A program made the translations under genes and the position numbers. Positions 14,279-18,878 of a DNA stretch of 64,000 nucleotides are shown here, piece by piece. How positions within the stretch are numbered: the first letter of the stretch is position 1; every line of letters begins with the position of its first letter. Under the pieces are notes generated by a model that was given only the letters and a program-made list of their open reading frames with translations, was not told the origin of the DNA and made no database searches. The stretch is from Arcticibacter eurypsychrophilus (GTDB taxonomy: Bacteria; Bacteroidota; Bacteroidia; Sphingobacteriales; Sphingobacteriaceae), in the NCBI RefSeq assembly GCF_001730525.1, contig NZ_MDFN01000024.1:1-64000 (forward strand). The letters run 5' to 3'.

Positions 14279-17215
14279 ATGGTTTCAAAGACAGATAAAA
14301 TTACTTTAAATAAGCTGGAGCAATTACGCGCGGAATTGGATGGTGAGTTATACCTGGATACTTTGCAACGCATTTTATATGCTACTGATGCCTCCTCTTA
14401 TCGGGAAATTCCGCTTGCTGTTGCCGTGCCTAAGACAGTAGATGATATAAAAGCGCTGGTCCGTTTTGCTAATAGGGAAAAAACAAGCCTTGTTCCTCGT
14501 TGTGCAGGAACATCCCTTGCCGGTCAGGTTGTAGGAGAAGGCATAATTGTTGATCTTTCAAAATATTTCACTGAAATTATAGCCTTTAATAGGGAGGAAA
14601 AGTGGGTACGTGTGCAACCAGGTGTGATCAGAGATGTATTAAATATGTTCCTAAAGCCTTTTGGGCTTTTCTTTGCCCCTGAAACGTCAACAGCCAACAG
14701 GGCCATGATCGGAGGTATGGTAGGAAATAATAGTTGTGGCGCTAATTCGATTGTTTATGGAAGTACAAGGGAACACTTACTTGAAGTTAATGCGGTATTG
14801 AGTGATGGCTCTGAGGTTGTATTTAAGGCGCTGGACCTGGAGGCTTTCTATAAAAAGTGCATAGGCAGCAGTCTGGAATCTACCCTTTATCATACTACTT
14901 TATCGCTGTTAAGTGATCCGGCTACGCGCTCTGAAATAGAAAAAGAGTTTCCGAAGAAAAGTATCCGCAGAAGGAATACCGGTTATGCGCTGGATCTTCT
15001 TATGGATGCTAACCCTTTTTCTGAAGGCGCTGAATCATTCAACTTTTGTAAGCTGGTTGCCGGTTCTGAAGGAACACTTGCCTTTGTCACTGAAATAAAA
15101 CTGAACCTTGTGGCTTTGCCGGATAAGCATAAAGGTTTACTTTGTGTACACTTCAACACGGTTGAAGAAGCATTGCGGGCTAATAGTATAGCCATGAGTT
15201 ACCAGCCTTCTGCTTGTGAACTCATGGATCATTATATACTTGATTGTACCAGGGACAACATAGAACAAAGAAAGAATCGTTTTTTTATACTTGGAGAACC
15301 TGGAGCGATTCTAATGGTTGAGTTTATAAGGGGAAAAACGGAATCTATTGTTGAAATAGCAGGATTACTGGCAGAAGAGCTGCAAAGGACTGGACTGGGT
15401 TATCATTATCCTCTTATTCTGAATGAAGAATGCAATAGGATCTGGGACCTGAGAAAAGCAGGATTAGGTTTATTGAGTAATCTTCCCGGTGATGATAAAG
15501 CGGTTCCTGTAATTGAAGATACAGCTGTTGATCTGCAAGATCTGACTGCCTATATCAGCGAGTTCAATGAGATATTAAAGAAGCATGACCTTTATTCGGT
15601 GCATTATGCACATGCAGGAGCGGGAGAACTGCATCTACGTCCGATCATAAATCTGAAAACTAGTGATGGGAATGCGCAGTACAAGATGATCGCTGCTGAA
15701 ATAGCCGAACTAGTAAAAAGGTACCGTGGCTCATTATCAGGGGAGCATGGAGATGGTAGGTTAAGGGGCGAGTTTTTGCCCTTCATGTTTGGTGAAAAAA
15801 ATTACCAACTTTTTAAGACCGTCAAAGATACCTGGGATCCTAAGCGTATTTTTAACCCAGGTAAAATTGTGGAAACGCCTCCAATGAATACCATGCTCAG
15901 GTATGAACCCGGACAGCAACAACCCGAAATAAAGACGGTCTTCCGCTTTAATGGTCAGACTGTTCTTCAGCATGCAGAACAATGCAATGGCTCCGGAGAC
16001 TGCCGTAAACTGCAATTTTCGGGAGGAACCATGTGTCCATCCTATATGGCTACGAGAAACGAAAAGGAAACAACCAGAGGCAGGGCGAATACATTAAGGG
16101 AATTCCTGACGCATTCGGAAAAAATAAACCGTTTTGATCATAAAGAAATACTGGAAGTAATGGATCTTTGCTTGAGTTGTAAGGGCTGTAAATCCGAATG
16201 CCCTTCCAGCGTAGATCTTGCTAAACTGAAGGCTGAATTTTTGCAGCACTATTATGATGCGAATGGGGCGCCTTTCCGTTCAAGAATCATTGCCCGATTC
16301 AGTACTATTTCTGGCATAGGGGCTCTCCTTCCCTCTTTGTATAATTTTATGGCGTCTACAGGTTTGCCTGGTATGGCCGGATTTGCAAAAGAAAGAGCAC
16401 TTCCTAAACTTTATTCCTTTACGCTTAAAAGCTGGTATAAGAAAAGAGGGATGTCAAAGAACGTGAATAAAAAGCAGGTGTATCTCTTTTTTGATGAGTT
16501 TAGCAACTACATTGATACCTCTATTGGAATTAAAGCTATCCTTTTGCTGGAGCATTTGGGTTTTGATGTATTGATGCCTCAACATATTGAAAGTGGGCGT
16601 ACCTGGCTCTCGAAAGGTTTTGTTCGTAAAGCAAAAAAAATAGCAAATCAAAATGTAAGTCAACTTGGCACATTAATTACCTCAGAAATTCCCCTTATTG
16701 GTCTTGAGCCTTCGGCGATCCTTACTTTTAGGGACGAATATCCTGATCTTGTGGATGATGATTTATTGGATACAGCCCGAAGACTAGCTCTGAATACATT
16801 CTTGATTGATGAGTTTCTTGCTCAGGAGGCTGAAAAAGGCACTATTGGTAAAGAACTTTTTATCAAAGACTCAAGAAAAGTATTGCTGCATGGGCATTGT
16901 CAGCAGAAAGCAGTTTCCTCAGTTGCAGCAACGGTACGGTGTCTATCCTTACCGGAAAATTATCTGGTAGAAACGATACCATCTGGTTGTTGTGGAATGG
17001 CCGGATCGTTTGGCCTCGAACAGGAACATTATAAAATCTCTATGCAGATTGGGGAGCTGATTCTTTTACCTGCAGTAAGAGAAGCTCCCGATGAAACTTT
17101 AATCGCAGCTACAGGAACCAGTTGCAGGCATCAGATTAAAGACGGAACTGGGCGTGATGCCTTTCATACTGTAGAAATTTTATATGATGCTTTGCTGAAT
17201 AAAGGTGTTTTATAA
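14279..17215 (+). CDS. D-2-hydroxyglutarate dehydrogenase, FAD/Fe-S type (YdiJ-like)
   Basis: A 978-residue flavoprotein that would oxidise D-2-hydroxyglutarate to 2-oxoglutarate. Domains in order: FAD-binding type 4 (about 40-185, with CAGTSLAGQVVGEG and VGNNSCGANS); FAD-oxidase C-terminal domain (to about 540, with HYAHAGAGELHLRP and GEHGDGRLRGEF); two ferredoxin-like cysteine clusters (CNGSGDC...MCPSY and CLSCKGCKSECP); and a C-terminal cysteine-rich CCG domain (GCCGMAGSFG). This architecture is that of E. coli YdiJ and related D-lactate/D-2-hydroxyacid dehydrogenases; the hglS neighbour favours D-2-hydroxyglutarate. Its last 87 coding bases lie in the left arm of a 112-bp perfect inverted repeat. 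Confidence 0.88.
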   Translation: MVSKTDKITLNKLEQLRAELDGELYLDTLQRILYATDASSYREIPLAVAVPKTVDDIKALVRFANREKTSLVPRCAGTSLAGQVVGEGIIVDLSKYFTEIIAFNREEKWVRVQPGVIRDVLNMFLKPFGLFFAPETSTANRAMIGGMVGNNSCGANSIVYGSTREHLLEVNAVLSDGSEVVFKALDLEAFYKKCIGSSLESTLYHTTLSLLSDPATRSEIEKEFPKKSIRRRNTGYALDLLMDANPFSEGAESFNFCKLVAGSEGTLAFVTEIKLNLVALPDKHKGLLCVHFNTVEEALRANSIAMSYQPSACELMDHYILDCTRDNIEQRKNRFFILGEPGAILMVEFIRGKTESIVEIAGLLAEELQRTGLGYHYPLILNEECNRIWDLRKAGLGLLSNLPGDDKAVPVIEDTAVDLQDLTAYISEFNEILKKHDLYSVHYAHAGAGELHLRPIINLKTSDGNAQYKMIAAEIAELVKRYRGSLSGEHGDGRLRGEFLPFMFGEKNYQLFKTVKDTWDPKRIFNPGKIVETPPMNTMLRYEPGQQQPEIKTVFRFNGQTVLQHAEQCNGSGDCRKLQFSGGTMCPSYMATRNEKETTRGRANTLREFLTHSEKINRFDHKEILEVMDLCLSCKGCKSECPSSVDLAKLKAEFLQHYYDANGAPFRSRIIARFSTISGIGALLPSLYNFMASTGLPGMAGFAKERALPKLYSFTLKSWYKKRGMSKNVNKKQVYLFFDEFSNYIDTSIGIKAILLLEHLGFDVLMPQHIESGRTWLSKGFVRKAKKIANQNVSQLGTLITSEIPLIGLEPSAILTFRDEYPDLVDDDLLDTARRLALNTFLIDEFLAQEAEKGTIGKELFIKDSRKVLLHGHCQQKAVSSVAATVRCLSLPENYLVETIPSGCCGMAGSFGLEQEHYKISMQIGELILLPAVREAPDETLIAATGTSCRHQIKDGTGRDAFHTVEILYDALLNKGVL

Positions 17216-17240
17216 GGGTCTATTTAAGAAACAAAAGACC
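17129..17240 (+). repeat. 112-bp perfect inverted repeat, left arm
   Basis: This 112-base segment is repeated in reverse complement at 17398-17509 with no mismatch found on base-by-base comparison. It covers the last 87 bases of the D-2-hydroxyglutarate dehydrogenase gene, including the stop codon, and 25 bases beyond. The left flank diverges immediately outside (G versus A), so the boundary is sharp. The transcript of the upstream gene would fold into a very long hairpin. Confidence 0.95.
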
Positions 17241-17397
17241 TCAATAAGAATATCTGCTTGACTTTAAAAAAAATAATATCTGGCTATATCAAAAGAATCA
17301 CTATGTTTCCAAAATGTCTGCCACAAAATCTGATAAGATTACGATCTAGCCTTGATTGAATGAATGTTTTTTTGATGCTATTAAAATACAATCTTAC

Positions 17398-17509
17398 GGT
17401 CTTTTGTTTCTTAAATAGACCCTTATAAAACACCTTTATTCAGCAAAGCATCATATAAAATTTCTACAGTATGAAAGGCATCACGCCCAGTTCCGTCTTT
17501 AATCTGATG
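17398..17509 (-). repeat. 112-bp perfect inverted repeat, right arm (gene 3'-end copy)
   Basis: Reverse-complement copy of 17129-17240, separated from it by 157 bases (17241-17397) in which no gene or known element is recognised. It carries a dead inverted copy of the 3' end of the upstream dehydrogenase gene. Identity of both arms means a recent duplication, active homogenisation, or an assembly/library fold-back artefact. The rest of the gap before the beta-helix gene (17510-17585) is AT-rich and would hold that gene's promoter. Confidence 0.95.
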
Positions 17510-17585
17510 TTAAGAAACTTAAATGAATTATGAGTTTGAATGAAATAACAGAATTGATTATTTTTATTTTAGCTAAGCTGATTTT

Positions 17586-18878
17586 ATGATTAAAAGATTT
17601 TTTGCTGCACTATTGATTTCTGTTGTACTAGTTAGCTTCAAAAGTGAGCGCAGCTGTATTTTAAATGAAATGGAAGCGGATTCAATAAATACTCCTAATA
17701 GAATTGAAGTAAGGTTAAGCGGAATTAATGATCATGATCAGGAGATTCAAAGCTACATCACTAGTAATTCACATTTGTTTTTTCCAAAAGGGACTTATGT
17801 AATAAACAATTTCATTACGATCAGTAACGTAACTAATTTAAAGATTTCAGGTGAGCCAGGTACTGTTTTTACAAGTAATCAAAATAAAATCATCACCATA
17901 TCCGGTGAGATCAATAATCTGGAAATTGAGGGGATTACTTTTAAATCGACAAAGGTTAGTGCAGTTGATGATGCGGAAGGACTTGTTTTCATTGCTAATT
18001 ATGGCGATGATGATATAATGGATGGCTTAAAGATTCATAATTGCAGGTTTAGCATTCCAAACTCTCAGGCAAATGGTATTAAACTTGTCAGTGAGGGAAC
18101 TAATTCAAGTGCTAAAAATATATCGATCACCTATAATAAATTTGAAAATATAGGTCGCATGGCCATTGAATTTCAGAATCATAACACACTGCTCGCTCCG
18201 AGATTCAGTGAGTTCGATATCTCATATAATTACTTTTATAATGTAGGCACAATACAACTGGGACCGGCTCCTGCGTGTGTGTCTGTAAGCGGACATTCCT
18301 TAAATGGCAAGATTAATTACAATAAATTTTATGATATGCATATGGAGAGCTCGAAATATATCTATTATGGAATTGAAAATGCGGGGACTATAGGTTTAGA
18401 AACGGTCGGTAATTATATGCAATCCAGCACCTATGGATTTACTGGCTTATTAGCTTCGGGATCATTAAAAAAGAGTTGGATGATCAAGGATAATGTATTT
18501 GAACTTTCCGGTGGTAAAACAGCTGATAAAAATAAGATTAGAGGGATGGAATTATGTAACCTGGATGATTTTATTGTAACCGGAAATACAATATCAACGG
18601 ATGGCATGGCCATTATGCTGGTAAATTGCACATCAGGGAGAATTACAAATAATAAAATAAAGGTAAAATCGGGGAATGCTATATACTTGAGAGCAGGATG
18701 TACTAAAAACGTAATCACCCGCAATGATATAGATGCTAGTCTTGGAACAGACAACGGAGTGGTGCTTTTTGATGGATCTGAAACCTCACACAATGTGGTT
18801 TCTTTAAACAACCTATTAAAAACGGGCAGACGGCCAGGTTCTTATGTGAATGTTAATGGCGCTAATAACAATAAATAA
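17586..18878 (+). CDS. Right-handed parallel beta-helix repeat protein, exported
   Basis: 430 residues with an N-terminal signal sequence (about 1-20). Many short imperfect repeats follow of the kind N-x-I/F-x-N-N-x-F/I (ITYNKFENIG, ISYNYFYNVG, INYNKFYDMH, VTGNTISTDG, ITNNKIKVKS). These are PbH1-type coils seen in pectate lyases, GH28 enzymes and polysaccharide epimerases. No catalytic signature was recognised, so the activity is open. It converges with the exopolysaccharide cluster and ends 20 bases from gmhB, so action on that polysaccharide is possible but unproven. Confidence 0.75.
   Translation: MIKRFFAALLISVVLVSFKSERSCILNEMEADSINTPNRIEVRLSGINDHDQEIQSYITSNSHLFFPKGTYVINNFITISNVTNLKISGEPGTVFTSNQNKIITISGEINNLEIEGITFKSTKVSAVDDAEGLVFIANYGDDDIMDGLKIHNCRFSIPNSQANGIKLVSEGTNSSAKNISITYNKFENIGRMAIEFQNHNTLLAPRFSEFDISYNYFYNVGTIQLGPAPACVSVSGHSLNGKINYNKFYDMHMESSKYIYYGIENAGTIGLETVGNYMQSSTYGFTGLLASGSLKKSWMIKDNVFELSGGKTADKNKIRGMELCNLDDFIVTGNTISTDGMAIMLVNCTSGRITNNKIKVKSGNAIYLRAGCTKNVITRNDIDASLGTDNGVVLFDGSETSHNVVSLNNLLKTGRRPGSYVNVNGANNNK

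Follow-up and report, generated by a model that had tools for sequence, protein, structure and literature searches.

A perfect 112-base inverted repeat at the end of an oxidase gene of Arcticibacter eurypsychrophilus, probably a young copy made by a template switch

The window, i.e., the whole stretch of 64,000 nucleotides that was analysed, carries a gene for a protein of 978 amino acids with an intact reading frame. The Pfam domains of this protein (FAD_binding_4, FAD-oxidase_C, Fer4_17, and Fer4_8) assign it to the FAD/Fe-S oxidases, whereas D-2-hydroxyglutarate dehydrogenase is the name given in the preliminary description of this DNA. The end of the oxidase gene forms one arm of a long inverted repeat, and a gene of a beta-helix protein follows. 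The features of the locus are:

14279 to 17215, plus strand: gene of 978 amino acids, FAD-linked oxidase with a 4Fe-4S domain, source of the copied tail (open reading frame, Pfam domains, orthologue in the congeneric genome G005)
17129 to 17240, plus strand: left arm, the source, with 84 sense bases and the stop codon TAA (17129 to 17215) followed by 25 untranslated bases; its coding part has a homologue in the tail of the G005 gene
17241 to 17397, no strand assigned: spacer of 157 bases (27% G+C), of which the genome has no second copy; neither orientation gave a detectable match to the intergenic region of G005
17398 to 17509, minus strand: right arm, the derived inverted copy of 17129 to 17240, missing in G005
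17510 to 17585, plus strand: leader of the next gene, in which homology to G005 restarts at about 17519 and runs to the next ATG
17586 to 18878, plus strand: next gene, 430 amino acids, NosD-like/right-handed beta-helix protein, which is the same neighbor in G005

The NosD-like gene has two more homologues in its own genome, with 56% and 44% identity.

The two arms are exact reverse complements over 112 of 112 nucleotides, so that the perfect repeat which had been described beforehand, with its coordinates and its separation of 157 bases, was recovered unchanged. The arm had also been said to hold the last 87 coding bases and the stop codon; the end of the gene is indeed present, but the 87 bases already include the stop. 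The number of such repeats expected by chance in 64 kb is approximately 10^-55, which excludes chance as their origin. No other exact inverted repeat of at least 20 nucleotides was found in the window, whatever the distance between the arms. The borders of the 112-base repeat are abrupt, as there is no complementarity in the inner or outer flanks immediately beyond the arms.

Repeats of this shape are rare in the part of the genome that was scanned, namely approximately 1.26 Mb (27%), with arms less than 2 kb apart and, in the last 400 kb, with scores of at least 28. The other repeats found there with arms of at least 30 bases (arm/loop 30/16, 32/16, 33/1, 41/3, and 32/0) all have loops of 16 bases at most and a terminator-like shape. 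Among 400 kb of genome G001 and 245 kb of G005, the scan found no repeat at or above the thresholds of 30 and 28. The present repeat shares with intrinsic terminator hairpins the position of an inverted repeat at a gene end, but it differs from them in its loop (157 bases vs. 16 at most in the terminator-like repeats of the same genome), in a stem that holds the stop codon, and in that the scan found no T-run. A survey of 118,019 genomes for perfect inverted repeats is described as covering spacers of up to 8 bases (PMC13155455); a repeat like the present one therefore falls outside it. Elsewhere in the genome, inverted repeats of the tandem motif GTGAKGCCACA were seen in two places (contig C11, L135:15383-15462 and L128:1015-1072).

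This rarity also bears on the reality of the repeat. The second arm might have been made by fold-back chimeras in the library or the assembly and be absent from the chromosome; chimeric reads with inverted repeats are reported from library preparation (PMC10908179), and the assembly consists of 93 contigs. However, such an artefact would need two distinct junctions, a spacer of 157 bases between them, and an in-register re-entry to the chromosome. Moreover, the locus lies inside a contig of 80.9 kb, with homology to G005 continuing on both sides. Since no second repeat of such shape was found in the 1.26 Mb of the same assembly, the library does not appear to be rich in fold-backs which reach the consensus, and a library full of them was rejected. 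An artefact is thus regarded as unlikely.

The search of the region 16700-17750 against 41 genomes gave matches in seven of them, and only in the species' own genome did a match extend across both arms. The single syntenic relative is G005, which belongs to the same genus and is the closest relative examined (protein identity of 89% for the oxidase orthologue and 90% for the beta-helix neighbor). A comparison of the locus in sister strains had been proposed as a check in the preliminary description; at the level of the genus, G005 conserves both neighboring genes with no second arm between them. The orthologous locus of another genome, G003, contains no inverted copy either. In the search within the genus, orthologues with more than 70% identity were found in four of six genomes, the own genome included. 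The orthologue of G002 is a fragment with no tail and was excluded from the comparison of tails; among the three genomes of the genus with a readable tail, the repeat is present in one, i.e., the species' own.

The alignment with G005 also gives the direction of the copying. The coding arm and the tail of the G005 gene are identical at 69 of 77 aligned positions, and at the eight positions which differ the inverted copy bears the state of its own species in every case (8/8). Against the intergenic region of G005, no significant similarity was obtained for the spacer or for the right arm (p = 0.63 in forward and 0.54 in reverse orientation). Homology restarts at most approximately 10 bases past the right arm, and the local alignment score of the leader against G005 was equalled by none of 300 shuffles. 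Because G005 has a homologue of the coding arm but no right arm in its intergenic region, copying proceeded from the gene outward. Judged by this alignment, 17398-17509 was derived from the gene tail, and the copy is to be placed after the split from G005, unless it was lost in G005. Loss is formally possible, since there is only one close relative with no copy.

The repeat was probably made by a single template switch during replication or repair in the lineage of this species. In detail, at about 17397 within the intergenic region, the growing strand would have come off its template and gone on to copy the opposite or the nascent strand from 17240 back to 17129, i.e., the tail of the gene as its reverse complement, before it rejoined its own template at about 17510. 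The product would be a non-tandem inverted duplication, with two identical arms of 112 bases around 157 bases and the gene itself untouched. The locus agrees with such an event in that the right arm is a perfect reverse-complement copy of adjoining sequence with sharp borders, and in that the unswitched state is seen in a close relative, G005 being the one informative syntenic genome. Template switching is described as producing perfect reverse-complement repeats and hairpins in one event (PMC8794818), and its action at quasipalindromes is described for Escherichia coli (PMC7202029). The present repeat resembles these mutations, both the correction of quasipalindromes in E. coli and the reverse-complement insertions which create hairpins, in the one-step copying of nearby sequence, the perfect pairing, the sharp ends, and the otherwise intact locus. 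It differs from them in size, since a tract of 112 bases and a jump of 157 bases exceed the largest template-switch-like pattern mentioned in PMC8794818 (up to 59 bp), and in that no pre-existing imperfect repeat can be demonstrated.

The length of the copied tract is therefore a point against a template switch. The length of the intergenic region is another, as 370 bases here and 365 in G005 are unlike a simple insertion of 112 bases; a replacement or other indels would be needed in addition. With respect to microhomology, the spacer and the intergenic region of G005 do not align, and there is no pairing immediately beyond the arms. As the intergenic sequence of the ancestor can no longer be recovered from G005, neither the strand used nor a microhomology that may have primed the switch can be read off. 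When a loss of SbcCD was weighed as a cause for the stability of the repeat, SbcD was found to be present in the genome.

Selection for a transcript-end hairpin or an antisense RNA had been listed as another origin of the repeat. The repeat would then act as a giant 3′ hairpin which shields the mRNA from RNase III or exposes it to this enzyme, or as a source of cis antisense RNA through a transcription start in the spacer that serves the next gene. A transcript through both arms has a predicted fold of -227.5 kcal/mol, far below the -80.3 (SD 5.3) of 100 shuffles, and, read on its plus strand, the right arm is antisense to the tail of the gene. Such a fold, however, is the trivial outcome of any inverted copy, and there is no conservation of the repeat in G005 or G003. 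The Rfam search of the repeat gave no match up to E = 1, and a known RNA family was rejected on this ground; with no counterpart in G005 or G003, the repeat does not resemble a conserved structured RNA. A scan for sigma-70-type promoters and terminators found no site in 17216-17585, and a Bacteroidota-type promoter pattern had no match in the spacer. A loose match to the latter pattern begins at 17535, in the conserved leader and thus outside the repeat. The copied tail continues in no open frame of at least 20 amino acids, and an open reading frame in the inverted copy was rejected. Apart from the fold, nothing positive was found for selection, and a selected element of either kind is considered improbable. 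The stem of 112 bp in any transcript which crosses both arms is probably a by-product rather than a device shaped by selection.

The arms may also be viewed as recombination sites between which the spacer of 157 bases flips and thereby alters beta-helix gene expression. This NosD-like gene lies downstream of the spacer, and invertons are described near surface genes of gut bacteria, Bacteroides included (PMC11892184). As in the invertible promoters of Bacteroides, inverted repeats flank an intergenic spacer; here, however, the arms include coding sequence, the spacer has no match to the promoter pattern, and neither the arrangement nor the spacer is conserved in G005. None of the six phage-integrase and none of the eight resolvase matches of the genome (tyrosine and serine recombinases, respectively) lies on the contig of 80.9 kb, although enzymes acting in trans are possible. 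In addition, arms of 112 bases are longer than site-specific recombination sites commonly are. Such a switch is judged most improbable, but it is possible that the spacer flips passively by homologous recombination. There is also a very slight chance that the inverted tail has turned regulatory, either because the leader of the downstream gene bears a perfect antisense of 112 bases against the oxidase mRNA at its 3′ end or because the spacer flips, and would so form a new link of two adjacent genes in one species. There is no Rfam match, no copied open reading frame, no recombinase match on the contig, and no further copy in the genome that would favor a designed function, and a selected role is not indicated.

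The age of the event was approached through the divergence from G005. At four-fold sites, 131 of 358 positions differ (0.50 after Jukes-Cantor correction), while the absence of differences among the 112 positions of the arms bounds their divergence at 0.027 (95%). Provided that the arms evolve independently, i.e., with no homogenization, the event belongs to roughly the final tenth of the period after the split from G005. A very recent origin, one of the four options in the preliminary description, is the best supported of them, with G005 lacking the second arm and the copy bearing all eight differences of the tail.

The premise that exact identity implies youth was, however, weakened by a control that emerged from homologous genes in other genomes. 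In total, 80 loci from GTDB genomes were compared, 76 of them with at least 400 bases downstream of the gene and four with less. Such repeats are present in two of the 80, namely Spirosoma profusum (L097; arm/loop 37/7 and 32/17) and Chitinophaga niastensis (L107; 106/59). The former are two perfect hairpins near each other (L097:6329-6517), with arms of 37 and 32 bases. The latter (NZ_PYAW01000005.1, L107:3727-3997) is a palindrome just downstream of the orthologue, and it turned out to be a dispersed element, to which the Chitinophaga genome has 103 matches with both orientations counted. Among the 28 copies examined (L173-L180 and L222-L241), 27 with arms of at least 80 bases and loops of 40-75 were used and L240 was omitted. 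The arms within a copy differ at 43 of 3,362 positions (1.3%, i.e., 98.7% alike), a measure which favors agreement within copies as the arms were delimited by complementarity, whereas the mean difference between copies is 11.4%, and that between a copy and its nearest neighbor lies at 2.1-10.2%.

Since the arms of the Chitinophaga element stay alike while its copies diverge, exact identity alone is no proof of youth; in the present case it suggests youth but falls short of proving it. That the arms are identical may be due to youth, to later homogenization by the same process, or to both. An older inverted repeat, held perfect by template switching or gene conversion between its arms, is nevertheless quite unlikely. 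Homogenization of repeat arms is described, together with inversion of the spacer (PMC8604942), and the Chitinophaga copies are in line with it. Against an older repeat, there is no trace of a second arm in G005 or G003, and the sharp borders show no outer zone of decay.

The Chitinophaga palindrome also raises the case of a mobile palindromic element inserted beside the gene. The two are alike in arm length, in having a loop (59 bases in the Chitinophaga element), and in their site just after the orthologous gene. They differ in that the Chitinophaga element is a dispersed family of many diverged copies, with arms which are not derived from the gene, while one arm of the present repeat is native gene sequence. 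When several copies, as expected of a dispersed palindromic or MITE-like element, were sought in the 93 contigs of the own genome, only self-matches were obtained. Because there is no second match anywhere in the genome, the repeat does not belong to a mobile family; a dispersed element was rejected, and the insertion of a mobile one has a negligible probability. A habit of the locus shared by both species was likewise rejected once the Chitinophaga palindrome proved to be dispersed, and the two cases are unrelated for the same reason.

The repeat is thus a real-looking, rare, and probably young inverted duplication of a gene end, and probably the product of a known kind of mutation. It is ordinary in kind, represents no new kind of system, and does not change how any gene family or system is seen. 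If real, it is a clean case from nature in which the end of a gene in a bacterial chromosome underwent a long inverted duplication, and a syntenic relative displays the copy-free state; such cases help to judge the origin of new hairpins at gene ends.

A literature search on palindromic elements of Chitinophaga found no paper, and the element of C. niastensis may serve as a system for the study of arm homogenization. Its copies have arms of approximately 100 bases and loops of 50-60 bases, and in some of them the arms are extended to 140-187 bases.
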